Part shown: positions 1,783 through 35,831 of the stretch, piece after piece
Layout: every line of letters starts with the position of its first letter
How positions within the stretch are numbered: position 1 is the stretch's first letter
NCBI GenBank assembly: GCA_029547805.1
Contig: JAKPOP010000007.1
Coordinates: 1-36,192, forward strand
Direction: 5' to 3'
Source: Deltaproteobacteria bacterium
GTDB lineage: Bacteria > Myxococcota_A > UBA9042 > DTJE01
Length of the DNA stretch: 36,192 nt
Translations under genes and position numbers: made by a program
The notes under the pieces: model-generated
What the model was told of the DNA's origin: nothing
The model's database searches: none
What the model saw: only the letters and a program-made list of their open reading frames with translations

Positions 1783-3315
<1,533 letters not shown>

Positions 3316-3348
3316 CCCGGGCCGAGTGGGGCCCCGCGAGGAACGGCG

Positions 3349-4230
3349 ATGGCGACCTTGAAGCAGATCCGGAGGCGGCTCACCAGCGTCCGGTCCACCC
3401 AGAAGATCACCCGGGCCATGAAACTGGTCGCCGCGGCGAAACTGCGCCGGGCCCAGGAGAACATGCTCCGGGCCTTGCCCTATGCCGCACGCCTGCGACG
3501 CATGATCTGGGACCTGAGCCAGCACACCGACCGTGCGATGCACCCGCTGCTCCAGGTCCGGGAGAAGGAGAAGGTGTTGCTGCTGGTCATCACCAGCGAC
3601 CGGGGCCTCTGCGGCGCCTTCAACAGCAACATCAACCGCCGGGCCGAGCGCTTCCTGCGGAACCGGGAGGAGGGGCACCGGGAGGCCGAACTCGCCCTGA
3701 TCGGCCGCAAGGGCCGGGACTACTTCCGGAGGCGCAACCACCCGATCTTCCAGGAGTACATGGAGGTGCTGTCCGCCCCGACGATGGACCGGGTGTCGGA
3801 GATCGGCGCCCAGGTGGCGGCCCGGTTCCTGGACGGGGGCCACGACGCCGTCTACATGGTCTACAACGAGTTCAAGTCCGCCATCTCCCAGCGGGTCGTG
3901 GTCGAGCGGCTGCTCCCCATCGAGCCCGAGTGGTCCGAGGAACAGCAGCAGGCGGAGCAGGCCCTGGAGGGGCTGGAGTTCGCCTTCGAACCGTCGCCGG
4001 AGGCGGTGTTGTCGGCGGTGCTGCCCCTCTACGTGAACGTGCGGCTCTACTTTGCGGTGCTGGAGAGTCTGGCGGCCGAGATGGGCGCCCGGATGACGGC
4101 GATGGAGTCGGCGACCAAGAACGCCGGTGAAATGATCCAGCGCCTGACGTTGCAGTACAACAAGGCCCGCCAGGCCTCGATCACGAAGGAGATGCTTGAG
4201 ATCGTGAGCGGGGCCGAGGCGCTGCGCTGA
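3349..4230 (+). CDS. atpG: ATP synthase F1 subunit gamma
   Basis: A 293-residue gamma subunit, the central rotor shaft. The N-terminus carries the family signature (LKQIRRRLTSVRSTQKITRAMKLVAAAKLRRAQ) and the C-terminal helix ends in the conserved TLQYNKARQASITKEMLEIVSGAEAL. These two helices form the antiparallel coiled coil inside alpha3beta3. The central Rossmann-like domain includes LLVITSDRGLCGAFNSN at about residues 78-94. It starts 33 bases after atpA and ends 72 bases before the chosen atpD start. The length is near the usual 280-300, with no insertion of the kind used for redox control in chloroplast gamma. Confidence 0.97.
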   Translation: MATLKQIRRRLTSVRSTQKITRAMKLVAAAKLRRAQENMLRALPYAARLRRMIWDLSQHTDRAMHPLLQVREKEKVLLLVITSDRGLCGAFNSNINRRAERFLRNREEGHREAELALIGRKGRDYFRRRNHPIFQEYMEVLSAPTMDRVSEIGAQVAARFLDGGHDAVYMVYNEFKSAISQRVVVERLLPIEPEWSEEQQQAEQALEGLEFAFEPSPEAVLSAVLPLYVNVRLYFAVLESLAAEMGARMTAMESATKNAGEMIQRLTLQYNKARQASITKEMLEIVSGAEALR

Positions 4231-5730
<1,500 letters not shown>

Positions 5731-5737
5731 GGGGCCG

Positions 5738-6157
5738 ATGACGATCGAGGTGGTCACCCAGGACGGCGCCAAGGTGAAGGACCTGGCCGTCGACGAGGTC
5801 ACCCTTCCGGGCGTGCTGGGGGAACTGAGCATCCTCCCGGGCCACAAGCCCATGATCATCGCCCTGGGCATCGGACCGATGGTGCTCCGGGGGCCCTTCG
5901 GGGAGCGCTGGTTCTCCCTCTCCGGGGGGTTTGTGGAGGTCCTGGGAGATCAGGTCCGCGTCCTGTCCGAGACCTGTGAGGCGGCGGAAGAGGTCGATGG
6001 AGACCGGGCGAAGGCCCACCTGGAGGAGGTCACGACCCGGATGGCCTCGATGCACCCGGGCATGGGGGAGGCCTGGAAGGCCGCCGAGGCCTCCCTCAAG
6101 AAGGCCGAGACCCGCCTCCGGGTCGCCGCGACCCGTTCCGCTTCCACCCTCCACTAG
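5738..6157 (+). CDS. atpC: ATP synthase F1 subunit epsilon
   Basis: A 139-residue epsilon subunit, which sits at the foot of gamma on the c-ring and can inhibit ATP hydrolysis. The N-terminal beta-sandwich contains the conserved LPGVLGELSILPGHKPMI region, and the two-helix C-terminal part (from about residue 88) is rich in Lys, Glu and Ala. The start is the ATG at 5738, seven bases after the atpD stop; the longer open frame to 5618 lies inside atpD and is not used. It is the last gene of the operon. Beyond it lies a 163-base convergent gap shared with fadA on the other strand, in which I see no convincing T-tailed terminator. Confidence 0.95.
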   Translation: MTIEVVTQDGAKVKDLAVDEVTLPGVLGELSILPGHKPMIIALGIGPMVLRGPFGERWFSLSGGFVEVLGDQVRVLSETCEAAEEVDGDRAKAHLEEVTTRMASMHPGMGEAWKAAEASLKKAETRLRVAATRSASTLH

Positions 6158-6320
6158 GCACTCCACACCTGGGGTCGCAATCCCACCCGCGGTCCGCGAC
6201 GGTTGCCCCCGTGTCACAATGCGGGAGGACCCTTCCAGGGGCTCCAGCAGGCTTCCGGTGCGAGGGAACCGTGGAAGTCAGAAAGGCAAGGCGATCAGAG
6301 AGGGGGGCATCAGGGGCAGG

Positions 6321-7496
6321 TCACATGCGCTCGAACAGACCGGCGGCGCCCATGCCCCCACCGATGCACATCGACACGATGCCGTAGCGGGCCTGGGTGT
6401 CCTTCAACTGGTACACCATCTGCACCGCCAGTTTCGCGCCGGTGCACCCCAGGGGGTGACCCAGGGCGATGGCGCCGCCGTTGGGGTTCACCTTGGCCGG
6501 GTCCAGGCCGATGGACTGTCCCAGCAGGTCCAGGCAGGCCAGCGACTGGGCCGCGAAGGCCTCGTTCAGTTCGTAGAAGGAGATCTCCTTCTCGGCGATG
6601 CCGACCTTGTTCAGCAGCTTCGGAATGGCCTCCGCCGGGCCGATGCCCATCACCTCGGGGGGCACCCCGGCGACCTGGAAGTTCACGAACCGGGCGAGGG
6701 GCTGCAGGCCGTACTTCTTCATCGCCTCCTCGCTCATGAGCACCAGGGCGGCGCCGCCGTCGGAGACCTGGGAGGAGGTGCCGGCGGTCACGGTGCCGTT
6801 GGTCTTGAAGGCCGGCTTCAGTTTCGCGAGGCCCTCCAGCGAGGTGTCGGCCCGGGGGCCCTCGTCGGTGTCGAAGGTGAACATCTCGCCCTTCTCGTAG
6901 TCATAGACCTGGAGGGGGACGATCTGCTCCTTGAACCGGCCGGCCTGAATGGCCGCCACGGCCTTCTGGTTGGAGGCGACTCCGAACTGGTCCTGGCGCT
7001 CCCGGGTGATGTTGTACTTCTCGGCGACGATCTCGGCCGTGATGCCCATCGAGGTGTAGGCCTCGGGGTACTCGGCCATGAGGCCCGGGTGGGGCAGCAG
7101 GTTGTAGCCGCCCATCGGGACGGTGGACATGGACTCCACGCCGCCGGCGACCACGACGTCCATGTACCCCGCCGAGATGGCCTGGGCCCCCAGCGCCACG
7201 GCCTGGAGACCCGACGAGCAGAAGCGGTTGATCGTCATCGCGGTGACGGTGTAGGGGAGCCCCGCCAGATAGACCGCGATGCGGGCGATGTTCATCCCCT
7301 GGGTCCCCTCGGGGAACGCGCAGCCGACGATCACGTCGTCCACGTGCTCCTTCGGGAACTTGTCCTCGATGCGCCGGAGGGCCTCCTTGATCGGATTGGC
7401 GATCAGGTCCTCGGGGCGATAGGACCGCAGCGCGCCCTTGTTCGCCTTGCCCACGGCGGTCCGGACCGCCGACACGATGTACACGGCTCGGGACAT
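6321..7496 (-). CDS. fadA: Acetyl-CoA C-acyltransferase (thiolase, FadA type)
   Basis: A 391-residue thiolase that cleaves 3-ketoacyl-CoA with CoA (EC 2.3.1.16), the last step of beta-oxidation. The nucleophilic Cys is C93 in the NRFCSSGLQAV motif. The catalytic His is H347 in NGGAIALGHPLGCTG, and the second active Cys is C377 in CIGGGMGAA. All three are present, so it should be active. The length is typical. A strong GAGGAGGAACG precedes the ATG. It is the second gene after fadN on the same strand, 107 bases away, and a very stable hairpin lies in that gap. A biosynthetic acetyl-CoA acetyltransferase has the same motifs, but pairing with fadN makes the degradative role much more likely. Confidence 0.93.
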   Translation of the reverse strand: MSRAVYIVSAVRTAVGKANKGALRSYRPEDLIANPIKEALRRIEDKFPKEHVDDVIVGCAFPEGTQGMNIARIAVYLAGLPYTVTAMTINRFCSSGLQAVALGAQAISAGYMDVVVAGGVESMSTVPMGGYNLLPHPGLMAEYPEAYTSMGITAEIVAEKYNITRERQDQFGVASNQKAVAAIQAGRFKEQIVPLQVYDYEKGEMFTFDTDEGPRADTSLEGLAKLKPAFKTNGTVTAGTSSQVSDGGAALVLMSEEAMKKYGLQPLARFVNFQVAGVPPEVMGIGPAEAIPKLLNKVGIAEKEISFYELNEAFAAQSLACLDLLGQSIGLDPAKVNPNGGAIALGHPLGCTGAKLAVQMVYQLKDTQARYGIVSMCIGGGMGAAGLFERM

Positions 7497-7565: not shown

Positions 7566-7596
7566 CGGGGCCCCCGGGAACCTCCCGGGGGCCCCG
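7566..7596 (-). terminator. Perfect 14-bp-arm hairpin between fadN and fadA
   Basis: Left arm 7566-7579 (CGGGGCCCCCGGGA) and right arm 7583-7596 (TCCCGGGGGCCCCG) are exact reverse complements with a three-base loop. The structure begins seven bases after the fadN stop. On the transcribed strand it is followed by mixed sequence without a T run, so it is not a canonical intrinsic terminator. It could act as a partial terminator, a 3'-end stabiliser of the fadN message, or a processing signal lowering fadA expression. The pairing is seen directly; the function is inferred. Confidence 0.6.
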
Positions 7597-7603
7597 TTCG
7601 CAC

Positions 7604-10003
7604 CTAGTTCCGCAGGGGCTTGCCGGTCTTCAGCATGTGCTCGATCCGGGCCTGGGTGGCCTCGGTCCCGCACAGGTAGAGGAAGCCCTCCTTCTCGAGG
7701 TCCAGCAGGTGCTGCTCGGTCACCAGGGTGCCGGGCCGGACGTTGCCGCCGGTGAGGACCTTGGCGATCTGCTTGCCGGCCACGACGTCGTGGGGCGTCG
7801 CGAAGCCGCCGGCGCCGAACTGCTCCAGGCCCGCCAGGAAGAGCGCCGCGCCGTCCGGTCCGGGCATGATCAGCCAGTCCGGCGGCGGCGGCGGGCGATA
7901 GCCGGCCCGCCAGAGGCCCAGGGCGGTCTGCTTCGCGTCGTAGAGCAGCCGGTCCCGGGAGAGGCTCACGCCGTCCTCGGGCCGCAGGAAGCCCAGGGCC
8001 CGGGCCATCTCGGCCGACGTGGAGACCTTCGCGGTGGCGATGTTCTCGAAGGCCTTCTGCAGCAGCGGCATCCGGGAGACGCCCTTCATGTCCCCGGGGA
8101 TGCCCCGGAGAAGCCGGCAGACCAGTTCCTTGCAGCCGCCGCCAGCCGGCAGCACGCCGACGCCGATCTCCACGAGGCCCATGTAGAGTTCCGCGTGGGC
8201 CTGGATCCGGGTCCCGTGCATCGAGACCTCGCACCCGCCGCCGAGGGCCATGCCGAAGGGCGCCGTCACGACGGGCTTCCGGCAGTACTTCATCCGCTGG
8301 CCGGCCTGCTGCAGGCGGGTCACCATCTCGCCCAGCATGTCCCAGTTGCCCATCTGGGCCGCCATGAGCACCAGTCCGATGTTCGCCCCGACGCTGAAGT
8401 TGTCCGCGTGGCCGCCGAGGACCAGGCCGTTCCAGTTCGCCTCGACCTCGTCCAGCGACTCGTGGAGCATGTCGATGATGTCGGTGTCGATGGCGTTCAT
8501 CTTGGTGTGGAACTCGAGGCAGGCGATGCCGTCGCCCATGTCGTAGAGCGTCGCCCCGAAGTTCTCCTTGATCACCTTGCCCTCTTCCTTCAGGTCCGGC
8601 AGCAGGATGAAGGACTCGGGCTTGTCGATCGCCACGTAGGAGTCGGTGCGGAAGTCCCAGTAGAACTTCCGGATGCCCTCCTTCTTGTAGAAGGTCCCCT
8701 CGCTCTTCTCGAGCATGCGGGTGATGTGGGCCGGGACCTGGATCCCCATCTCGGCCATCTTGGCCACGCTGTCCTTCACGCCGATGGCGTCCCAGACCTC
8801 GAAGGGCCCCAGTTCCCAGTTGAAGCCCCACTTCATCGCGTTGTCGATGTTCACCACGTCGTCGGCGATCTCGCCGATGCGCTTCGCGGTGTAGTTCAGC
8901 GTGTAGGCCAGGGACTTCCAGGCCAGCTGCTGGGCCCGGTCGTCGCCGTTGAGCAGGTTCCGGATCCGCTCCCCGGGGTCCGCCACGCCCTTCGTGGACT
9001 TCACCGAGTCGAACTGGGGCTTCGTGGCCTCGCGGTAGGTCACGGTCTTCCAGTCCAGCGCCAGGCTGACCTTCTTGCCGTCGGGACCGGTGTCCTTCTT
9101 GTAGAAGCCGCCCTTCGTCTTCCCGCCGAGCCACTTCTTCTCGACCATCTGCTGGATGAACGGCGGCAGCTGGAAGACCTCCCGCTCGTCGTCGTTGGGC
9201 AGGTTGTCGTAGCAGTTGGCCGAGACGTGCTTGTAGGTGTCCACGCCGACGAGGTCGGCGGTCTTGAAGGCCGCCGAGTTGGGATGGCCCATCGGCTTGC
9301 CGAAGACCGCGTCCACCTCCTCGATCGTGTAGTCGCCTTCCATCATCAGCTGGATCGTCTTGTTGATGGCATAGACGCCGATGCGGTTGGCGACGAAGTT
9401 CGGGGTGTCCTTGCCGAAGACGATGCCCTTGCCCAGCACCTCCTGGCCGAAGTGGACCCAGGTCTCCACGACCTCCGGGTCGGTCTCGGGCCCGGCGACC
9501 AGCTCCAGCAGCTTCATGAAGCGCACGGGGTTGAAGAAGTGGGTCACCAGGAAGTTCTGGCGGAACTGGGGCCCGAAGCCCTCGGTCATCGCGGCGATGG
9601 AGAGTCCGGAGGTGTTGGAGCTCAGGATCGCGCCCCACTTCAGCAGGGGCTCGATCTTCTTGAAGAGGTTGCGCTTGATCTCGAGGTTCTCGACGACGAC
9701 CTCGATCACCAGGTCACACTCGGAGATCTTGTCCAGGTCGTCCTCGAAGTTGCCCACCGTCACCAGGGCGGCCAGTTTCTCGTGGTAGAACAGGGGCGCG
9801 GGCTTGAACTTCTTGGCGGTCTCGATCCCGTTCAGGGCGAACCGGTTCCGGGCCGTCCGGTCCTTCTTCTCCTCGTCGGTGAGGTTCGGAGGAACGATGT
9901 CCAGGAGCAGACAGGGGATCCCGGCGTTGGCCAGGTGGGCGGCGATCCCGGAGCCCATCACTCCGGCGCCCAGCACGGCCGCTTTCTCGACTCGTCGCAC
10001 CAT
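7604..10003 (-). CDS. fadN: 3-hydroxyacyl-CoA dehydrogenase / enoyl-CoA hydratase fusion (FadN type)
   Basis: A 799-residue bifunctional beta-oxidation enzyme that hydrates trans-2-enoyl-CoA and oxidises the 3-hydroxyacyl-CoA with NAD+. Domain order is dehydrogenase first and hydratase last, opposite to E. coli FadB and like Bacillus FadN. The NAD-binding motif AAVLGAGVMGSGIAAHLANAG is at residues 8-28, and the HCDH C-terminal domain follows. The crotonase domain near residues 500-700 has the two catalytic acids, in GGGCE (near residue 590) and in LVEIG about 20 residues on. The start at 10003 is set by GGAGG six bases upstream; the in-frame extension to 10138 has no ribosome site. It is transcribed before fadA. 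Its hydroxyacyl chain specificity cannot be read from sequence. Confidence 0.92.
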   Translation of the reverse strand: MVRRVEKAAVLGAGVMGSGIAAHLANAGIPCLLLDIVPPNLTDEEKKDRTARNRFALNGIETAKKFKPAPLFYHEKLAALVTVGNFEDDLDKISECDLVIEVVVENLEIKRNLFKKIEPLLKWGAILSSNTSGLSIAAMTEGFGPQFRQNFLVTHFFNPVRFMKLLELVAGPETDPEVVETWVHFGQEVLGKGIVFGKDTPNFVANRIGVYAINKTIQLMMEGDYTIEEVDAVFGKPMGHPNSAAFKTADLVGVDTYKHVSANCYDNLPNDDEREVFQLPPFIQQMVEKKWLGGKTKGGFYKKDTGPDGKKVSLALDWKTVTYREATKPQFDSVKSTKGVADPGERIRNLLNGDDRAQQLAWKSLAYTLNYTAKRIGEIADDVVNIDNAMKWGFNWELGPFEVWDAIGVKDSVAKMAEMGIQVPAHITRMLEKSEGTFYKKEGIRKFYWDFRTDSYVAIDKPESFILLPDLKEEGKVIKENFGATLYDMGDGIACLEFHTKMNAIDTDIIDMLHESLDEVEANWNGLVLGGHADNFSVGANIGLVLMAAQMGNWDMLGEMVTRLQQAGQRMKYCRKPVVTAPFGMALGGGCEVSMHGTRIQAHAELYMGLVEIGVGVLPAGGGCKELVCRLLRGIPGDMKGVSRMPLLQKAFENIATAKVSTSAEMARALGFLRPEDGVSLSRDRLLYDAKQTALGLWRAGYRPPPPPDWLIMPGPDGAALFLAGLEQFGAGGFATPHDVVAGKQIAKVLTGGNVRPGTLVTEQHLLDLEKEGFLYLCGTEATQARIEHMLKTGKPLRN

Positions 10004-10110
10004 GAAGCACCTCCGTTCTTCCAGAAAGAACACCCGGGCCCGCCCTGGTTGACGGGCCGACCTGCACGACGCCTCCCCGGAAACCGGGCAGGACCTCGGC
10101 GAATGGGTCG

Positions 10111-18995: not shown

Positions 18996-21319
18996 GGCGC
19001 GGCGGCTGTGTCGCGATGTGGGGGGCCCTGTGGCTGCTGGCGCCCTGCGGCCTCCAGCCCGCGGCCCTGGCCCAGGAGGCGTCGGGATCGGCGCCCGTCG
19101 TCGCCGAGGTCCGCTTCGACGGGCTGCTGCGAATCGACGCCGAGACGGCCCGCCGGCGCATCCGCACGCAGGTCGGACGGCCCCTGGACCCCGACACGGT
19201 CACGGCGGACCTGAAGACCCTCTTCGGCATGGGGGCCTTCGAAAACCTCTCGGCGGCGGTGGAACCCGTCGAGGGCGGGGTCCGGCTGGTCTTCCGGGTC
19301 GAAGAGCGCCCGGCAGTGGACCGGGTGCGCCTGGAGGGCAACGACGAGGTCAAGGAGGAGGACCTCCGGAAGAAGCTGACGGTCCGCCCGGCGGCGATCC
19401 TGGACATCGAGCGGGTCGAGCAGAGCGCCGAGGCCCTCCGGGCCCACTACGTGGAACAGGGCTTCTATCTGGCGGAGGTGACCTTCCGGCTGGACCCCCG
19501 GCCCAATCGCATGGTGGACGTGGTCTTCGTGATCCGGGAGCACGCGAAGGTCCGGGTCCAGCGGATCGAGTTCCTGGGCAACGACCACGTCCCGTCGGAG
19601 GAGATCAAGAAGTTCATGCAGACCCAGGAGGGGTCCCTGCTGTCGTTCCTGACGGGCAAGGGGACCTTCCAGAAGGAGGCCCTGGAGCAGGACGTCCAGC
19701 GCATCGCCTTCTTCCTGAACACCCGCGGATATGCCCAGGCCCGGGTCTCGGAGCCCATCGTCACCCTCTCCCGGGACCGGCGGTTCATCACGATCACGAT
19801 CCCCATCGAGGAGGGCCCCCAGTACCGGGTGGGTCAGGTCCGAGTCATCGGGGACCTGCCGGAGACCTCCGAGGCGGACCTGCTGCCCCGGCTGGCCCTC
19901 AAGCCCGGAGAGGTCTTCAACGCCCTGAACGTCCAGAAGGACATCCAGTTGCTGGGCGACCTGTGGAAGGACCAGGGCTACGCCTTCGCGACGGTGTCCA
20001 ACGACACGGAACTGCACCCGGACACGAGGCTGCTGGACTTCACCTACATCCTCCAGAAGGGCGAGCAGGCCCGCTTCGGCCGCATCGACATCGTGGGCAA
20101 CGAGGGAACCCGGGACTGGACGATCCGACGGGAACTGCGGATCTACGAAGGGGACCTCTACAACGAGACGAGCCTGCGGGACAGCGAGGCCCGGATCAAG
20201 CGGCTGGGCTTCTTCGAGACGGTATCGGTGACCCCACGACCGGGGATGAAGCCCGGGGAGGTGGACGTCACGGTCGAGGTGAAGGAGCGCCAGACGGGCG
20301 CCTTCAGCGTGGGGGCGGGCTTCAGCAGCCTCGAGAACTTCCTGTTCCAGGCCCAGGTCAGCAAGCAGAACTTCCTGGGCCGCGGGCAGAACATCCGTCT
20401 GGAGGCCACCCTGTCGAGTCTGCGGCGCTTCTTCGTCTTCTCGTTCGATGAGCCCTATCTCTTCGACACCGACTGGACCTTCGGCTTCAGCGCCTACAAC
20501 ACCGACATCTCCCAGTACAACTTCTACCAGGCATCCAAGGGCCTGGACTTCACCTTCGGCCGACGGTTCAAGGACTTCTTCAGCGTGGCCCTCACCTACA
20601 AACTGGAAGGCGTCAACGTCCGGGCCGGGGGGTACGGGCTCAAGAGTGCCTCGGACGTGCCGGTGGCGAACCTGGATCAGGTGGGCATCACCAGCAGCCT
20701 GACCCTGACCGGGGCCTTCGACAACCGGGACGACCGGATGTTCCCCACGAAGGGCAACGTCAGCAGCATCAGCCTGGAGTGGGCCGGGAGCGAGATCGGC
20801 AGCGATTTCGACTACCTGCGGATCAACGTGCGGTCCCGGCAGTACTTCCCGATCATCTGGGGCATCGTCGGCAAGGTCGCCGGGTCGTGGGGTTACATCT
20901 TCAGCCCCAAGGGGCGCCCGGTGCCCATCTTCGAGCGGTTCCAGGTGGGCGGGATCTTCACGGTCCGGGGATTCGAGCGGGCCTCCCTGGGCCCATCGGT
21001 GCCGGTGGGTTCCGCCCGGGACCCGTCGGCCTGGCCTTCGCCGTTCAAGATCGGCGGGGCGCAGCAGTTGATCCTGAACGTCGAGGCGGAGTTCCCGATC
21101 TTCCAGTCCCTGGGCATCCGGGGGGTGGTCTTCTTCGACGCCGGCAACGCCTACGACGACGGCGAGTGGCCCAACCCGCTGAAGATGCGACCCGCGGCGG
21201 GCTTCGGCATCCGGTGGTGGTCCCCCATCGGTCCCCTGCGATTCGAGTGGGGCTTCCCCCTGAAGCGCCAGAGCGGCGAACCACCGGTGGTCTTCGAGTT
21301 CAACATCGGGTCGTTCTGA
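18992..21319 (+). CDS. bamA: Outer-membrane protein assembly factor BamA
   Basis: A 775-residue Omp85-family protein that inserts beta-barrel proteins into the outer membrane. A signal peptide covers about residues 1-28. Repeated POTRA domains run to about 420 (first VAEVRFDGLLRIDAETARRRI; later VQRIEFLGNDHVPSEEI and FGRIDIVGNEGTRDWTIRREL), and a C-terminal 16-strand barrel follows. The conserved lid-lock motif VRGFERASLGP sits near residue 657, and the barrel ends in an aromatic strand finishing in Phe (FEFNIGSF), as expected of the final strand. It starts with GTG overlapping the lolD stop, and SurE follows 18 bases later. There is no sign of truncation. Confidence 0.96.
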   Translation: MRRGGCVAMWGALWLLAPCGLQPAALAQEASGSAPVVAEVRFDGLLRIDAETARRRIRTQVGRPLDPDTVTADLKTLFGMGAFENLSAAVEPVEGGVRLVFRVEERPAVDRVRLEGNDEVKEEDLRKKLTVRPAAILDIERVEQSAEALRAHYVEQGFYLAEVTFRLDPRPNRMVDVVFVIREHAKVRVQRIEFLGNDHVPSEEIKKFMQTQEGSLLSFLTGKGTFQKEALEQDVQRIAFFLNTRGYAQARVSEPIVTLSRDRRFITITIPIEEGPQYRVGQVRVIGDLPETSEADLLPRLALKPGEVFNALNVQKDIQLLGDLWKDQGYAFATVSNDTELHPDTRLLDFTYILQKGEQARFGRIDIVGNEGTRDWTIRRELRIYEGDLYNETSLRDSEARIKRLGFFETVSVTPRPGMKPGEVDVTVEVKERQTGAFSVGAGFSSLENFLFQAQVSKQNFLGRGQNIRLEATLSSLRRFFVFSFDEPYLFDTDWTFGFSAYNTDISQYNFYQASKGLDFTFGRRFKDFFSVALTYKLEGVNVRAGGYGLKSASDVPVANLDQVGITSSLTLTGAFDNRDDRMFPTKGNVSSISLEWAGSEIGSDFDYLRINVRSRQYFPIIWGIVGKVAGSWGYIFSPKGRPVPIFERFQVGGIFTVRGFERASLGPSVPVGSARDPSAWPSPFKIGGAQQLILNVEAEFPIFQSLGIRGVVFFDAGNAYDDGEWPNPLKMRPAAGFGIRWWSPIGPLRFEWGFPLKRQSGEPPVVFEFNIGSF

Positions 21320-21337
21320 GAGGAGCACCGCACCCAG

Positions 21338-22150
21338 ATGTCCCGCCCCCTCATCCTCGTGACCAACGACGACGGCATCCAGGCATCGGGCCTCCAGGCG
21401 GCGGTCCGGGTCGCCCGGGAACTGGGCGAGGTGCGGGTGGTGGCCCCGGACCGGGAACGGAGCGGCGTCTCCCACGCCATCACCCTCTCGGAGCCGCTCC
21501 GGGTGCGCCCCTTCGGGGAGGGACGGTGGTCTCTCAGCGGCACGCCCGCGGACTGCGTCTTCATCGCGGTGAACCACCTGCTGGACCGGAGGCCGGACCT
21601 GGTGATCTCGGGCATCAATCGGGGCCCGAACCTCGGAGGGGACGTGCTCTACAGCGGCACGGTCGGGGGCGCCATGGAGGGCACCATCCACGGCATCCCC
21701 TCGGTGGCCCTGTCGCTGATCTCCTCGGCGGAGTTTGACTTCGAGGGGGCGATCCCGGCCGTTCGGATGCTGCTGGCCGATCTGCTGCAGCGGGGCCTGG
21801 AGCCCGGCGTGACGCTCAACGTGAACCTCCCGGACGCCAGCATCGCCCCGTTCCGCGGCTTCCGGGTCGTGCGCCTGGGACGGCGGTTCTACAGCAACGA
21901 CGTGATCACCCGCACGGACCCCAGGGGTGAGGAATACCTGTGGATCGGGGGCACCCGGGTCACGATGGAGACCACGCCGGACACGGACTGCGGCGCCGTG
22001 CAGGAGGGATGGGCCTCGGTGACGCCCCTCCAGGCGGACTTCCTGGCGGCCGGGGCGATGGGAAACCTGAGGTGGGTGGAGCGGCTGCCGGGGGGCGCGG
22101 GGGAGGAGGGGCCTCGCAGATCGGCCCCGGAGGCACAGGAGGCACGATGA
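21338..22150 (+). CDS. surE: 5'/3'-nucleotidase SurE
   Basis: A 270-residue SurE, a metal-dependent nucleoside monophosphate phosphatase (EC 3.1.3.5) linked to stress survival. The N-terminal metal-binding motif ILVTNDDGIQASGLQA (acidic pair at residues 10-11) and the downstream SGTPADCV, SGINRGPNLGGDVLYSGTVGGAMEG block are the family hallmarks. The C-terminal 20 residues are Gly/Glu/Arg-rich and probably disordered. GAGGAG precedes the ATG. The stop overlaps the apt start (ATGA at 22147-22150), which couples two nucleotide-metabolism genes. In many bacteria surE sits beside pcm and rpoS; that arrangement is absent here. Confidence 0.95.
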   Translation: MSRPLILVTNDDGIQASGLQAAVRVARELGEVRVVAPDRERSGVSHAITLSEPLRVRPFGEGRWSLSGTPADCVFIAVNHLLDRRPDLVISGINRGPNLGGDVLYSGTVGGAMEGTIHGIPSVALSLISSAEFDFEGAIPAVRMLLADLLQRGLEPGVTLNVNLPDASIAPFRGFRVVRLGRRFYSNDVITRTDPRGEEYLWIGGTRVTMETTPDTDCGAVQEGWASVTPLQADFLAAGAMGNLRWVERLPGGAGEEGPRRSAPEAQEAR

Positions 22151-22686
22151 AGGACGCGGAACTGGCTCAGGCGTTGGGAAACCGCATCCGGGACGTCCCG
22201 GACTTCCCGAAACCCGGCATCCTGTTCAAGGACATCACCCCGGTGCTGCTGGACGCCCCCCTCTACGGGCGGGTCGTGGAGGCCCTGGCGACGGCCGTGA
22301 GGGACGCCGGGACCGACGTGGTGATGGGCATCGAGTCCCGGGGCTACCTCTTCGCGGCCCCGGTGGCGGCCCGCCTGGGACTGCCCCTGGCGCTGGTCCG
22401 AAAGCCCGGGAAACTGCCCTGGCGGACCCGTGCGGCGACCTACGATCTGGAGTACGGCACGGACCGGATCGAGGTGCACGAGGACGCCGTGCAGCCCGGA
22501 CAGCGCGTGGCCGTGATCGACGACCTGCTGGCCACGGGCGGGACCATGGAGGCGGCCTGCCGCCTGGTCCGGGACCTGGGGGGGGCACCGGTGCTGGCGG
22601 CCTTCGTGGTGGAACTCTCCTTCCTGCCAGGGAGGCAGCGCCTGGGGAACGCCGTGGACGCCGTGGAGTCCCTGGTCGTCTTCTGA
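22147..22686 (+). CDS. apt: Adenine phosphoribosyltransferase
   Basis: A 179-residue type I phosphoribosyltransferase that makes AMP from adenine and PRPP (EC 2.4.2.7). The N-terminus matches the family pattern IRDVPDFPKPGILFKDITPVL. The PRPP loop VAVIDDLLATGGTMEA lies at about residues 120-135, and the adenine-site GIESRGYLFAAPVA is at about 75-88. The length is normal. It overlaps surE by four bases and is the last gene of the lysS operon. The 48-base convergent gap after it contains an imperfect GC hairpin that may serve both strands. Other PRPP transferases lack the GIESRGF/Y motif, so the assignment is firm. Confidence 0.95.
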   Translation: MKDAELAQALGNRIRDVPDFPKPGILFKDITPVLLDAPLYGRVVEALATAVRDAGTDVVMGIESRGYLFAAPVAARLGLPLALVRKPGKLPWRTRAATYDLEYGTDRIEVHEDAVQPGQRVAVIDDLLATGGTMEAACRLVRDLGGAPVLAAFVVELSFLPGRQRLGNAVDAVESLVVF

Positions 22687-29748: not shown

Positions 29749-32700
29749 CTAAGATTCCCCTCCGGTTTGCCTTGCAGTCTCGAACCAGCCAGTGTCCGCC
29801 GAGACCCTGTCCGCCCCCTCCCGTCCCAGCAGGATCCTCGCGAGCCGGCGGAAATGCCGCGCCATCGCGTTGCGGTCGCTCAGATGGCCATATGGAATTT
29901 CCAGCACCTCGTAGCCGCGATTGCGGAGTTCTTCACGAATCTCGCGGTCGCGTCTCTGGGTAGCCGGATTGCCGTGGATGTGTCGGCTCATGCCGTCGAG
30001 GTAGATGCAGATACCATCCAACCGTCCGGTCGGGTCTTCATAGAAGAAGTCCGGTTTCGTAGTGCCCAGGGAGAGCCCAAGGTCAATGGGACGCTGCCCG
30101 ATGGGCGATGGGAACCCGGCACTCACGAGCAGCGCCCTCAGGGTCGCCTCGGCGTCGTTCACCGGTGGTTCACCGCGGTCCGTCTCAGGCAATCGCGGCG
30201 TGACAGGGTGCGCAAAGACCAGGGTGTCGCCCCATGTCCGGAGGCGGTCGGAAGCCGTGCTGCGGTTGAGGTGCTGGTGGTAGGCAGCGTTTCTGAAGGT
30301 GAAAAGGCAGTCAATGCACGCCGTCGCGCAGCCGCACTTCTCCACCACCTCAAGCGCCGCCTGGACCACCTCGGGCCACCGGCTCGTCATCTGGTCCAGC
30401 AGGCCCGATCCTCCAGGCATCGGGTCATAGAGCAGGACATCCACCACCGCCGACCCCGGTCGCCCGATGGCAAGGACTTGCAGGTCCTCCAAGTCCATTT
30501 CCAGAATCCCAGACGCGCCCTTTCGCAGGGCCTCGGCGACGCTGTAGGCCTCTTCCCGGCTCGCGCATTCCTTGATGCAAAGCGCGTCAACCACGATATC
30601 GGCGAAGAAACCCACGGACTCGACCCGCCGGCCGCACCGCTCCTGGTGATCCCTCGCGAACTGGTTGCGGTCGGCCTCAGAGGCCAGTGCCGAACGGCTC
30701 TGCCCGCAAACGAGGCACATCGGATATCCCATTCGGTTGGCACCCCTGACAAGCTGAGACGGTCCGACGTTCACGAGACGAAGGTGAACCGAAGAACGGA
30801 GGGAAACCTCTTTCGGACCCCAGTGAAAAGACCGGCCTGCCCCATGGCGGGCCTGCTCGTACCCGAACACCGACACGGGCAACTGGAAGCGGTAGTCCTC
30901 GTCGTCGGTGATGTGCGACTGGTGGGGCAGGTCCACGTCGCAGATCGGGATGGCGGGCAGCGCGCTCGCGCCCAACCCCACCTCCGCGACTGCCAGTCCC
31001 GTCCCGACCTCGACGACGGCCTCATTTCCCACATCTACCTGGAAGATCGTGGGTTCCGTCGCCTCCAGGTGGAAGAAGCGCGGGTAGAAACGATGACCGT
31101 TCACATAGATGAGGTTCCCGGGCACAAACTCGCGAAGTGCCAGCGCCTGTGGCCGACGCAGTTCAAAGTCGCGCAGGTCGGTCCCGTAACGGGGGGCCTG
31201 ATGAAACCCTACAACCGCGCCAATATCCAGCCCGTAGCCGGGCAGGAACCCCTCGGCCGCAAGGACCGAGTACGTGTTGGTGTCGTCATACCCTTCGGCC
31301 TCGCGCCGACGCCTGCTCTCGATCCCCTTGAGTTTCTTGACGAGTCGGTCGCACCGCTGCCTCAGTGCATCCTCGTCAGGGTCGAGCGTGCCCTTGGTCT
31401 CGCGTACCTCATCGAGACGGCGCATCTGGTTGAGAGCCCATTGAAGCCGGCGGGCGAGCCGAGCGGTCACATCGCCCAGGCATTCGGCGAAGTGACCCAC
31501 CTGCATGGCAAGACGGTCAGGCGCGACCACTGCCGCGTCATCTGCCGGCCACCCCTGATCGAACACGGCACCGACGTGATCGACTATCGTTTCCTCGTGT
31601 TTCGCCACAACCGCCGCGAGCGGTGCCGTGTCAAATGGCTCCCGCCGGACATGCCCTGCATGGTCAAACAAGTAGTGCCTGACCTGAGGCGGGAAGCAGT
31701 GACTGAGAACCTCACTCAGCCCTTGCCGGTCCTCCTCGGAAAGCGGGCTGCCGGCCCGCGCCAGCCGAAACAGAACGGTGAGGACAGCCGCATGCACGTG
31801 CTTCTGGACCATCAACTCGTTCTTCAGGTTGAACCTCGGGGGCGTGATCACCCCGCCCAGAAGCCTGGCCGGGTCCGCAAAATATGCCCGGTCGTGGCTG
31901 GCTGTCCGTGCGTAGGTCACGTTGACCGCCATCCGGTGGCGGCGGCCCGCGCGCCCCGCCCTCTGCCAGTAGTTGGAAGGCAGCGGCGGCACGTTGCGCA
32001 TCAGCACCGCGTCGAGAGCACCGATGTCCACCCCGAGTTCCAGCGTCGGCGTGCACACGAGCGTGTTCACCAGGTCGTGTTCCCCCTTGAACGCGCGCTC
32101 GAGGACCTCGCGCTGGTCCGGCGGAATCTGCGCGGAATGCTCCCGCGGCCGGAGCATCGTGAACCCCTTGTCGAGGACCATCAGGTCGTAGTCTTCACCG
32201 CTCTCGGGCTCGTCTCGCAACGTACCGCCGCACCGCCATGCCGTACAGACCATGTGAGGCGTCACACGGACATGGGGACGGCGGCAGGTGTCGCATCGAA
32301 AGACCCCCTTGTGGGCCGCAAGCCTTAGCCTGTCGGCATCCACCTGCCGCACCCCGGCGCATCGGGGCAGGGCGCGATTGCGGGCACCCTTCAAGGTGGC
32401 GGGAGCGAGCAGCCCCAGGTCTTCCGTCAGTAGTCGCCAGAGGTCGTTAAAAAACTCGTCGAGGTGTTCCGCCGGAACCCCGAACCGCCGCGCCAACTGC
32501 CTGGCCTGCGTGTCACCTCGGTCCGAGAGCCACTGCTGAACCCGATTCGGGTCGTCGTCCGGGCCGCGTCGCAGTTTGAGACCCTTTGGTACACCAGGCA
32601 TCAGGGGCAGGTAACCCCGCTGGACCTCGTAGTCCCCGTCCTGCCAGAATCGGGAAAAGATGTCGCCCTCGCGGTCCAACAGGATCCCGCCGCGACGTGT

Positions 32701-35199
32701 GATGTCCAGCAGGGTCGCCACACCTGACACGAGTTCGTCCCGCGATGTGTCGAGCGGCCCCGACCATTTCTCGAAGAACGGCAGGTCAGGCCTGAGTCCT
32801 GCATACTCCACGATCAATCGGCCCCATGGTTCCAGGCCGATCCGCTGGCGCATGCTCGTGGCGACCTCCCGCAGGACCAGGATGCGCAGGAAGCGCTTGC
32901 GCTCCTCCCCGTGGCGGACGCCTTCCGCTTCCTTGCGATGGACGCGCCAGACCTCAGGGACCAGGGCCCGGGACAGGTCGTCGTCGTGATCCAGCAGGTC
33001 GTCCAGGTACGACGTGAGGTCTCCAACCGACACCGGACCCTGGACCAGACGCTCGTGGATCAGGGCGCGCAGCCGGTAGCGGCGAGCGTGGTCCTGCATC
33101 CAGCCCGCCTGAAAGGCGGCGTCCTGGCGGTTGTCCGCAAAGACGAGCAGGCGCTTTCGCTCGGCGTAGTGCAGCATGTTCTGCGCGAGCACGTGGACGT
33201 CGGAAACGGCAACCGCACGGACCGGGCGTGCCGGTTCCCTGTACAGACCCACTCGCTGTCGCCCGATGGCGCCGCATGCCACGCACCTCGTCAGGTATCC
33301 CGGCACGGTATCGCTCTGCCGCAAGACGTAGAGTTCGACCAGCCCGCCCTCCCGTCCGCACCCGTCGCAGCGGGGCCGCTCGGCCGGGTGCAAGGCGCCG
33401 CAGGTGCGGCACAGGTACACCGGCGCCCCGAAGCGGTGGCTCGTCGGATCGGCGCCGTCTGCGCCATTGGCACCCTCTTCGTCAGGATCCTCGGTGACGA
33501 GCCGGTCCACGAGGACGACGCGACAGCCGCCTCTTGCCGCATCCAGGGCGCGCCAGACGACCCGGTCCTCTACCGCCTCGCCTCCCTCCGGCGTCCGGTC
33601 CAGGAATTTGAAGTCCGCAACATGGTGAACAAAGTAGTGCTGCCCGCAGGTGGTGCAGGTGAGGATCGGCAGGCGGAACAGACCTGTGTCGCAAGCGACC
33701 TCGTCCTCGGCCGATAGCCACAACTTGGGTCCCGTGTGTCCCTCGGGGAACGTCACGACCGCGCCGCCGACGCCCCGCACGAACGCGTGGACCACAGGGC
33801 GCAACAGGGGCCGGCCCTCCCTGCGCGACACGGCGCCGAGTGCGAGCCACACCAGAATTTCCTCCTCGGGCACCGGGCGTCCAACAACGCGGGCCAGTTC
33901 CTCAACCAGGTCGTCCAGCCGCCGCGGCGTGGTGAGGGATTCCGCGATCCGGTACACCAGTTCGTTCGCGGCGAGCCGGTCGTAAAGGCTCTCCTGCCAG
34001 CGGGCCGCTTCGAGCCGTGTCCCCGTGAGCGACTGGAAGACGCCCTGGAGCATTCGCACCGCGGATTCGCTCGGGCCATCGCCCTCGACTCCGGAGACCG
34101 CGTCGAGCACCGTGCGGAGCTGGACCGCCGGGTCGCCCGGAAGCGGATCCGGCATCGCGCGCGTGTCGGCCCACATGTCGGTCTCGTACTCCTCACCGAC
34201 GAGTGCAACCGATTCCGCGGGAACACCGAAGAACCGAGCCGCGAATTCCCGGCCGGCCTCTGGACCGCGCTCCGGGTCAGCGATCGTGGCCGACGTGGCG
34301 ACGCAGGCCGTCTCCGTGGGTCCGCGACCGCAGTGTGCCCGCAGGCGCCGGATCAGGCACGCGGTCTCGGCCCCGGTCGCGCCGCTGAAGGTGTGGGCTT
34401 CATCGAAAACCAGAAAGTCGAGTCGGGCCCCGTCGAACAACTCGACGTCCCGCTGGCGGGTGAGCAGCAATTCGAGTTGCTTGATGTTCGTGAGGAGGAT
34501 GCGCGGCTGCATGCCGGGAGTGCGCATCTCGTCCCGGCTGACGCGCTCCTCTGGCGGGTGGACCGCGTGGGTCTGCCGGCTGCGGCGCACTGACTCGAGG
34601 GCGCTCAGGTAGTCCACCCGCGACGACCCGGACGGCAGCCGGATGCCGGGCACGTCCTCGCTTCTTTCGGGTGTCTTCCCCACGTACATGCCGAACGTGA
34701 CGCCTGTGCCGGCGAGCAATTCCCGCAGGCGTCCGAGCTGATCCTCGGCGAGGGCGTTCATCGGGTACACGATGACCGCGACGACCCCCGCCGGGGCGCG
34801 CTGGTCCCGCAGCGTCAGGCACCGGCTGATGATCGGGTACAGGAAGCACTCAGTCTTCCCGGAGCCGGTCCCGGTGGCCACAAGCGCCGTCTTCCCGGCG
34901 GCGATCCCCCGGATCGCGGTCTCCTGATGTCCGTACAGATGCGGATGCGGGGCGAGATGCGCCAGGTGAGGGTGCAGCACGCCTTCGGCGACCAGGTCGG
35001 CCACCCTGGCGCCCTTGCGGAACGATCGGCTGAGGCTGATATACGGCCCCTTCAGCAGCGGCGAGGCCCGCGTCTCCTCGAGGTTCAGGAGGCGCCGCAT
35101 CTGCTCGTGCAGGCCGCGGTCCGCAAAGGGGTACGTGGTGATCTGGTACCGCAGGAAGTCCGCGACGACGCGATCGGCGAAGGTGATTGGGTTCAGCAT
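29749..35199 (-). CDS. Giant SF2 helicase with DUF1998 module and C-terminal Vsr/DUF559-like nuclease domain
   Basis: A 1816-residue multidomain protein. The DEAD/DEAH core has Walker A ATGTGSGKT at 108-116, DEAH at 266-269, SATI at 303-306 and motif VI QRAGRAGRR near 1080. Cys pairs near residues 515 (CTTCGQHY), 600 (CRTCGALH with CDGCG) and later (CDTCRRPH, CLVCGQS) suggest zinc binding. The DUF1998 region runs to about 1630 and ends in CGCATACIDCL. The last 120 residues resemble a Vsr/DUF559-type nuclease: PDFFYED, IYLDGMSRHIHG, then an Asp and GYEVLEIPY. ATG 35199 is chosen because GGGAGG lies upstream and the gene then overlaps the preceding ORF by seven bases. The fusion recalls DISARM DrmA+DrmB and MrfA; an anti-phage role is inferred. 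Codon use differs from the housekeeping genes. Confidence 0.85.
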   Translation of the reverse strand: MLNPITFADRVVADFLRYQITTYPFADRGLHEQMRRLLNLEETRASPLLKGPYISLSRSFRKGARVADLVAEGVLHPHLAHLAPHPHLYGHQETAIRGIAAGKTALVATGTGSGKTECFLYPIISRCLTLRDQRAPAGVVAVIVYPMNALAEDQLGRLRELLAGTGVTFGMYVGKTPERSEDVPGIRLPSGSSRVDYLSALESVRRSRQTHAVHPPEERVSRDEMRTPGMQPRILLTNIKQLELLLTRQRDVELFDGARLDFLVFDEAHTFSGATGAETACLIRRLRAHCGRGPTETACVATSATIADPERGPEAGREFAARFFGVPAESVALVGEEYETDMWADTRAMPDPLPGDPAVQLRTVLDAVSGVEGDGPSESAVRMLQGVFQSLTGTRLEAARWQESLYDRLAANELVYRIAESLTTPRRLDDLVEELARVVGRPVPEEEILVWLALGAVSRREGRPLLRPVVHAFVRGVGGAVVTFPEGHTGPKLWLSAEDEVACDTGLFRLPILTCTTCGQHYFVHHVADFKFLDRTPEGGEAVEDRVVWRALDAARGGCRVVLVDRLVTEDPDEEGANGADGADPTSHRFGAPVYLCRTCGALHPAERPRCDGCGREGGLVELYVLRQSDTVPGYLTRCVACGAIGRQRVGLYREPARPVRAVAVSDVHVLAQNMLHYAERKRLLVFADNRQDAAFQAGWMQDHARRYRLRALIHERLVQGPVSVGDLTSYLDDLLDHDDDLSRALVPEVWRVHRKEAEGVRHGEERKRFLRILVLREVATSMRQRIGLEPWGRLIVEYAGLRPDLPFFEKWSGPLDTSRDELVSGVATLLDITRRGGILLDREGDIFSRFWQDGDYEVQRGYLPLMPGVPKGLKLRRGPDDDPNRVQQWLSDRGDTQARQLARRFGVPAEHLDEFFNDLWRLLTEDLGLLAPATLKGARNRALPRCAGVRQVDADRLRLAAHKGVFRCDTCRRPHVRVTPHMVCTAWRCGGTLRDEPESGEDYDLMVLDKGFTMLRPREHSAQIPPDQREVLERAFKGEHDLVNTLVCTPTLELGVDIGALDAVLMRNVPPLPSNYWQRAGRAGRRHRMAVNVTYARTASHDRAYFADPARLLGGVITPPRFNLKNELMVQKHVHAAVLTVLFRLARAGSPLSEEDRQGLSEVLSHCFPPQVRHYLFDHAGHVRREPFDTAPLAAVVAKHEETIVDHVGAVFDQGWPADDAAVVAPDRLAMQVGHFAECLGDVTARLARRLQWALNQMRRLDEVRETKGTLDPDEDALRQRCDRLVKKLKGIESRRRREAEGYDDTNTYSVLAAEGFLPGYGLDIGAVVGFHQAPRYGTDLRDFELRRPQALALREFVPGNLIYVNGHRFYPRFFHLEATEPTIFQVDVGNEAVVEVGTGLAVAEVGLGASALPAIPICDVDLPHQSHITDDEDYRFQLPVSVFGYEQARHGAGRSFHWGPKEVSLRSSVHLRLVNVGPSQLVRGANRMGYPMCLVCGQSRSALASEADRNQFARDHQERCGRRVESVGFFADIVVDALCIKECASREEAYSVAEALRKGASGILEMDLEDLQVLAIGRPGSAVVDVLLYDPMPGGSGLLDQMTSRWPEVVQAALEVVEKCGCATACIDCLFTFRNAAYHQHLNRSTASDRLRTWGDTLVFAHPVTPRLPETDRGEPPVNDAEATLRALLVSAGFPSPIGQRPIDLGLSLGTTKPDFFYEDPTGRLDGICIYLDGMSRHIHGNPATQRRDREIREELRNRGYEVLEIPYGHLSDRNAMARHFRRLARILLGREGADRVSADTGWFETARQTGGES

Positions 35200-35831
35200 C
35201 TGACAGTACCTCCCGTGGCCATCCGAGGAAGAAATCTGAGAAGCCGCGCCAGGCTGGGGCTGCGCGCTTCGGCGGCGTGGGGCCGCCAGTGAAGGTTCGT
35301 GAAATCGATCAAGGACGTGACATATCCGGGACCAAACCGGGCGCTGGTGCCCTCGGGCGGCAGCAGGGCCTCGCGGATCGACTTGCGGCGCGAACGGCGG
35401 GCGAGTGCGAGCACATGGTCCTTCGGGTCGTCGAGTGCATCCGGGTCGCCGGAGACCCGCGCCGCGGGAACGCCCAAACAGTGCGCCATGGCCTCCCGAT
35501 CCGCGAGCAGCCACGACTCGACGGCCCTCACCGCCACATGGAGGCGCATCCGTGGGGCAGGCGACGGCAGCAGCGTCCTGGTCAGTTTCGGTGCGCACGG
35601 CGCGTCATGGTCGAGGTCCCGCAGTACGAGCCAGCGGGAGAATCGAGCAGCGTTGTTGTACGCGGCAAGCCTGTCGTCCAGCCCAGTCTTCCCGTTCGTG
35701 ATGCACACCGGACCCGGGGTCAATCCGGCCCTGAGTGATCCCCTCAAAGGCGATCGGGGGTCTGCGAAGTCTCGGCAGGGCCAAAAGAAGCCTTCCGGGG
35801 GCACAGCGCGCTGTGTAGCGAGGTTTTTCAT
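35193..35831 (-). CDS. DUF4276/Toprim-like protein, probably N-terminally truncated by an IS
   Basis: A 212-residue ORF. From about residue 45 it matches the pattern I associate with a DUF4276-like, Toprim-related family: GKTGLDDRLAAYNNAA, the acidic DLD at 72-74, VRAVESWLLAD (101-111), DPK (135-137), GPGY (167-170) and SPSLARLL. The N-terminal segment that should hold the Toprim glutamate is missing; residues 1-40 look unrelated and may be read from IS sequence. The ATG has GGAGG six bases upstream, but both lie in the end of the transposase gene, with ATGA overlap. It precedes the helicase with a seven-base overlap. It could still be expressed as a chimera, though it is likely a damaged gene. 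The family name is from memory of its motifs. Confidence 0.6.
   Translation of the reverse strand: MKNLATQRAVPPEGFFWPCRDFADPRSPLRGSLRAGLTPGPVCITNGKTGLDDRLAAYNNAARFSRWLVLRDLDHDAPCAPKLTRTLLPSPAPRMRLHVAVRAVESWLLADREAMAHCLGVPAARVSGDPDALDDPKDHVLALARRSRRKSIREALLPPEGTSARFGPGYVTSLIDFTNLHWRPHAAEARSPSLARLLRFLPRMATGGTVRC

Follow-up and report, generated by a model that had tools for sequence, protein, structure and literature searches.

The anti-phage system ARMADA comprises a SNF2/BrxHII-like helicase, a PglX-like methyltransferase and a YprA helicase with a C-terminal Vsr domain, and in the assays given in the covered parts of the paper all four genes were needed and defence was non-abortive (Bell et al. 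2025, PMC12458937). The core genes are ordered armA-armB-armC in type II and reversed in type I; type II carries armD, a RelE-UvrD/GajB-like gene, after armC. In the E. coli ATCC 8739 island, which supplied the reference genes, armA-armB-armC-armD adjoin with nothing between them. Druantia type III (DruH-DruE) also has a YprA-family helicase. PARIS (AriA-AriB), Gabija GajA and OLD all combine an OLD-type ABC ATPase with a Toprim nuclease. In PARIS, AriA holds AriB in check and releases it; the AriB-type Toprim is activated by an anti-restriction protein and cuts tRNA. An ATPase and a Toprim protein also make up HEC-01 (Hma-embedded candidate 01), already known as a PADLOC-DB candidate. No paper on HEC-01 or DUF4276 was found in the literature searched. 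The backup-effector idea is likewise already known for BREX and related systems, for which a second layer is described, made up of TOPRIM-linked OLD-ABC, PIN and Schlafen genes within or next to restriction-like operons (Rakesh and Krishnan 2026, PMC12839542, in the part covered); that part of the text has no match for YprA, DUF1998 or DISARM. "Guilt-by-embedding" is in print as well (PMC12988326, PMC10855318, both as far as covered). The covered parts of the ARMADA paper neither mention a variable slot nor contain the terms Toprim, DUF4276, "accessory" or "inserted between".

The window, that is, the whole 36192-bp stretch of DNA analysed here, is an entire contig (C26 of genome G000) whose end falls within an IS (Table 1). 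The C-terminal part of the transposase spans 36192 down to 35828, with its stop codon at 35830-35828. Directly outside both IS ends lie the same nine bases, GGCCGGATT, at 35730-35722 of the window and at 720-712 of another contig of this genome, C28; the chance expectation for nine matching bases at two fixed places is about 1 in 260,000. The left part of the IS is C28:1-711, up to the contig end, and related inverted repeats, CTGACCCATCCCCTCAAA and CTGAGTGATCCCCTCAAA, are found at the IS ends. The right end of the IS occurs again at G000:C27:35608-35768 (96% over 161 bp); the IS is therefore multi-copy and may explain other contig breaks.

Table 1. Features of the window, with positions counted from its first base
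Feature	Position	Strand	Evidence
armC-like YprA-family helicase, 1816 aa, intact	29749..35199	-	Pfam DEAD, Helicase_C, MZB; PADLOC DruE3 3.9e-112; synteny with SNF2 and methyltransferase genes in relatives
C-terminal Vsr-type nuclease domain (predicted), about residues 1678-1790	29830..30168	-	AlphaFold model, pLDDT 76
MZB (MrfA Zn-binding, DUF1998 region), residues 1555-1632	30304..30537	-	Pfam PF09369 9.5e-12
First RecA domain (DEAD), residues 91-178	34666..34929	-	Pfam; Walker A TGTGSGKTE, residues 109-117
OLD-type Toprim gene (HEC-01B), 3′ fragment	35193..35730	-	PADLOC HEC-01B 3e-51; matches L020 Toprim from residue 24
9-bp target-site duplication GGCCGGATT	35722..35730	-	Second copy C28:712-720
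Right part of IS (transposase 3′ end and right inverted repeat), cut at contig end	35731..36192	-	Sequence comparison with C28

A genome search with the ATPase and the methyltransferase of two homologous loci (L020 and L081, respectively) placed the missing half of the operon at the end of C28, on the minus strand, where a SNF2 helicase gene, a methyltransferase gene, an OLD-type ABC ATPase gene and the first 27 Toprim codons are followed by the IS. The complete operon, of whose anatomy we are highly confident, runs armA-armB-OLD-type ABC ATPase-Toprim nuclease-armC, all genes pointing the same way and abutting or overlapping, the Toprim gene being split by the IS. The junctions are ATGA (armA/armB), TGAcATG (armB/ATPase), ATGA (ATPase/Toprim) and ATGCTGA (Toprim/helicase). 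The matching duplication and IS on the two contigs indicate that the Toprim-like ORF at 35831-35193 is a 3′ fragment with an IS-borne start codon and ribosome site. Its ATG at 35831-35829, earlier taken as the gene start, lies in the IS and overlaps the transposase stop (ATGA), and about the first 34 residues of the ORF are IS-encoded; the true start is C28:791, and the last of the 27 codons read from there already touches the IS. An earlier note, made from the window alone, had given each ORF its own ribosome site: the helicase ATG is indeed preceded by GGGAGGT, while the site before the Toprim ORF (GGAGGTGTCGT) belongs to the IS. The locus serves as a warning, a contig end and an IS having given half an operon the look of a new two-gene system.

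All three ARMADA core features are present. The SNF2 helicase (armA, C28 6920-10240, 1106 aa) is open, matches PADLOC DrmD at 1.3e-195 (650 bits) and BrxHII at 244 bits, and is 27% identical to E. coli ArmA over 600 residues. The methyltransferase (armB, C28 about 1950-6983), also open, matches type IIG, DrmMI and Eco57I models and, weakly, PglX, and is 74% identical to the L081 methyltransferase over C28 2016-6899. The YprA-like helicase has invariant columns in the Walker A region in an alignment of ten helicases, and its modelled C-terminal domain aligns with I-Bth0305I (Z 11.6) and with Vsr structures 1cw0 (Z 9.0) and 1vsr (Z 8.2), pointing to a Vsr fold. Its identity to E. coli ArmC is 23-28% over matched stretches, ArmC and DruE being about equally low. 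A tree rooted on the YprA-like gene of the same genome gave a polytomy of the window clade, E. coli ArmC and DruE, with long branches; since these three are left unsplit, ARMADA membership rests on gene content and order. The armA-armB-armC order is that of type II and of the reversed type I. A scan of species genomes yielded helicase relatives, of which the best 80 of 216 were kept (best-segment identity 47-79%). Of these 80, 53 have a methyltransferase homologue upstream in the same orientation, and 39 of them also the SNF2 C-terminus, in the order SNF2-methyltransferase-helicase; the slot count below excludes the 27 that show no methyltransferase in the stretch read, several of them beginning at a contig end. 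ArmD gave no match in the window or in 18 kb of C28. An ArmD-like gene is present at 9 of the 86 other loci covered, including L106, the nearest relative of the window and L081 on the helicase tree; L081 has one weak distant match. Elsewhere in the genome, at G000:C4:493161-495188, there is another large methyltransferase-like ORF (1813 aa frame), 33-59% identical to the ARMADA methyltransferase in pieces, which is perhaps part of another restriction-like system.

Between armB and armC lies an ATPase-Toprim pair that fits the HEC-01 models. For the Toprim fragment PADLOC HEC-01B is far better than the DUF4276-like label first proposed, which Pfam supported weakly (E 0.0086, 16.8 bits, cut-off 30.2); DUF4276 was rejected as its family. 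The two Toprim pieces complement each other: residues 4-26 of the L020 Toprim correspond to the piece on C28, residues 24-202 to the window piece. Matching only from residue 24, the window piece is thus without the N-terminal VEG/IEG motif and its conserved glutamate. Toprim relatives show the catalytic signature E ... DxD, in which D62 and D64 (L020 numbering) never vary, and neither does E10 in the eight complete rows; the fragment retains DxD only, the E aligned in its row being IS-encoded. The C28 ATPase (1948-788, 69% identical to the L020 ATPase in the two longest matched pieces) carries three lesions: two frame breaks, giving three frame segments, the first break at a short tandem repeat, and one inner TGA. 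As both cassette genes are broken and the three core genes are open, it is the cassette that is decaying, not the core.

L020 holds an intact pair (ATPase HEC-01A 8e-150, also AAA_21; Toprim HEC-01B 9e-59), and there, as in the C28 and window pieces together, the ATPase directly precedes the Toprim, as in HEC-01. Unlike that candidate, the pair sits here in ARMADA and not in Hma, and both of its genes are broken in G000. A profile of nine such ATPases matched GajA, OLD, PtuA and AriA structures in the PDB; the Toprim gave no PDB sequence match. The modelled Toprim of the L174 homologue was most similar to the OLD C-terminal region (Foldseek E 1.6e-3, VIA Z 8.0), and unrelated rows scored nearly as well; no PARIS or Gabija Toprim came up for it in this comparison, which excludes neither. 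ATPase and Toprim are separate genes here, in contrast to GajA and OLD, and by sequence only the ATPase resembles its PARIS counterpart, AriA.

The ATPase-Toprim order was found at all nine loci L020-L028, at eight of 12 further loci and in G000, in total 18 of 22; at three of the four remaining loci no more than about 60 bp separate the end of the ATPase match from the contig end. Loci L029-L031, with weak Toprim matches and no HEC-01 ATPase adjoining, were left out of the 22. A YprA-type helicase lies beside the pair only in G000, L020 and L021. L020 has the methyltransferase-ATPase-Toprim-helicase order of G000; in L021 the cassette is inverted. The ATPases of these three are 66-72% identical to one another, whereas the six others show 43-59% identity to that of L020. 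Within the phylum, 12 of 377 genomes gave Toprim matches, and in another phylum sample seven of 398 genomes gave ATPase matches at E 1e-60 or better; a tblastn search of phages and plasmids gave no Toprim match. At L023 (G315:C206, 8615-13432), whose ATPase is next closest (59% to L020), HEC-01 immediately follows SNF2-helicase-like matches that are spread over more than one frame, possibly a Hma-type or another embedded setting.

The cassette and the helicase have separate histories. The window and L081 helicases are sisters (79% identity, support 100), and L081 has 78 bp between armB and armC and, in its genome, no HEC-01 ATPase match better than E 1.1e-4. The L020 helicase groups elsewhere, its sister relation to the window helicase being rejected (AU test, p 0.001), and the L021 helicase is only 35% identical. 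Sisters that differ in the cassette, with L020 elsewhere on the tree, indicate that this cassette type entered the slot repeatedly or was lost repeatedly.

Across 53 loci the armB-armC gap ranged from -34 to 9234 bp. Among 39 three-gene loci, a gap of at least 500 bp was found 20 times between armB and armC and twice between armA and armB; discordant loci numbered 19 versus 1 (binomial p 4e-5, loci treated as independent). Genes were called in 29 of the 31 loci whose armB-armC gap reaches 500 bp, L078 and L106 having none. Of 98 slot genes 77 share the strand of the operon, and 20 of 29 filled slots end in a same-strand gene that lies within 120 nt of the helicase. On the helicase tree, with 59 rows scored, the slot must have switched between filled and empty at least 12 times. 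The slot protein scan took 94 of the 98 called genes in one alignment, with 30 lead genes scanned one by one. Among the leads are AbiEii, AbiEi, PIN, PemK/MazF, ParE, zeta, Fic, DarT, GmrSD_N, Schlafen AlbA_2, BrxC/D, a one-piece OLD with Toprim (L096), AAA_15/DUF3696 ATPases and an MkoA match. In 22 of 29 filled slots the lead belongs to what we take to be toxin-antitoxin or defence families, going by Pfam names; this count excludes the leads of L117, L122, L129, L147 and L151 as well as the XisH/XisI leads of L088 and L143. The ATPase and Toprim are a self-contained module in an exchangeable armB-armC slot, where relatives hold other toxin or defence genes or nothing.

Several slots deserve separate mention. 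Two Pseudanabaena carry XisH/XisI genes there (L088 and L143, both 9172-10001). At L126, two BrxC/BrxD-like ATPases (7584-10037) lie between the ARMADA methyltransferase and helicase, a BREX part in an ARMADA-like operon; the last, helicase-like slot "gene" of this locus may be part of the core or of another system. The SNF2 gene in the L151 slot might be a displaced armA. L033 (IMG/VR UViG_3300048599_000897, 206-22163), a contig filed as viral, bears an ARMADA operon with other slot genes; its downstream gene (20595-22163), presumably recombinase-like by its motif, suggests an operon on an integrative element.

We consider the window to be quite probably the 3′ end of an ARMADA-type anti-phage operon with an exchangeable, putative backup-effector cassette, here decayed. 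Against this reading, only three loci have the cassette beside such a helicase, and one of them is inverted with a helicase 35% identical. General knowledge of methyltransferase-based defence and of OLD/PARIS nucleases, together with the published ARMADA assays, suggests how such an operon might work. The ARMADA core would mark self DNA and attack unmarked phage DNA with its helicases and Vsr nuclease. The ATPase would restrain the Toprim nuclease until infection, or until phages put the core out of action, and then let it act as a second, possibly suicidal line of defence in the manner of AriA-AriB of PARIS. In G000 this second layer would be dead, and the core may persist without it. The odds that the cassette acts as a backup effector of the ARMADA operon appear to us evenly balanced. 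TOPRIM-linked OLD-ABC modules accompany restriction-like operons in BREX too (PMC12839542, in the part covered); the host operon here differs in being ARMADA, and the slot in being one particular junction. A wider proposal, which we hold to be doubtful, is that armB-armC would be a dedicated cargo slot, repeatedly loaded with guard modules that are silenced by or sense the core and fire when a phage disables it, one HEC-01 subclade having specialised for the slot and moved between distant ARMADA operons. Should the slot prove real and functional, uncharacterised toxins and defence genes could readily be sought at the armB-armC junction, and the backup-effector idea would extend from BREX to another large class.

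The HEC-01 cassette could instead be a passenger, a defence-island insertion with no functional link to ARMADA. That it occurs alone elsewhere and decays here while the core ORFs stay open fits this explanation, as do the very mixed slot contents, some of them not evidently defensive (XisH/XisI, TPR, dCTP-deaminase-like). However, insertions concentrate at one of the two core junctions and are mostly same-strand and tightly spaced, and the three ARMADA-embedded ATPases are more similar among themselves than L020 or G000 is to the six others. We regard a passenger as a real possibility, though on the unlikely side.

The locus might also be a new Druantia subtype, a DruE-like helicase with a methyltransferase, an ATPase and a Toprim. 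PADLOC scores the helicase as DruE3 and also as DruE1 (4.1e-109), and the polytomy of the rooted tree leaves room for this. But PADLOC-DB dates from 2023, before ARMADA, and a tblastn search at E 1e-5 gave no DruH match in 88 stretches, window and C28 included. The genes upstream of the helicase were identified as Toprim, ATPase, methyltransferase and SNF2, and the combination of SNF2 and PglX-like genes with a helicase ending in Vsr, rather than in the PLD nuclease of Druantia type III, is the published ARMADA signature, with ArmD-like genes in nine stretches. A Druantia subtype is thus improbable.

A dedicated two-gene Toprim-helicase defence system, as the earlier note proposed, is highly improbable: the genes overlap, with the same overlap in L020 and adjacency in L021, but Toprim is found beside 0 of the 80 best helicase relatives (the 79% identical L081 among them), the stretch read shows no such helicase at the 19 ATPase/Toprim loci other than G000, L020 and L021, and the run is completed by the ATPase and methyltransferase on C28. 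Much of what that note described was borne out, namely the helicase ORF from its ATG at 35199 to its stop at 29749, the seven-base overlap (ATG 35199-35197, TGA 35195-35193), a helicase-DUF1998-nuclease fusion next to a Toprim in a locus broken by an IS, and the suggested third gene, both the AAA ATPase and the methyltransferase being present. The Toprim-helicase adjacency does recur in two other genomes, G113 (L020) and G201 (L021, where the cassette is inverted), yet not as a conserved two-family pair; the constant partner of the Toprim is the ATPase. The overlap, though real, is partly built in: the M-L-N start of the helicase (ATGCTGAAC) spells TGA in the other frame. The L020 helicase, 57% identical to that of the window, has the same ATGxTGA junction, and the identical ATGCTGA overlap in the two is partly dictated by these start codons.

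Among plasmids, the only close helicase was that of Synechocystis B12 (52.8%), with no Toprim there. In that plasmid locus a PIN-domain gene precedes the helicase, with SNF2- and methyltransferase-like genes further upstream. The helicase itself (L032, CP101713.1, 12001-17443) is split over six annotated reading frames and is probably a pseudogene or poor sequence.
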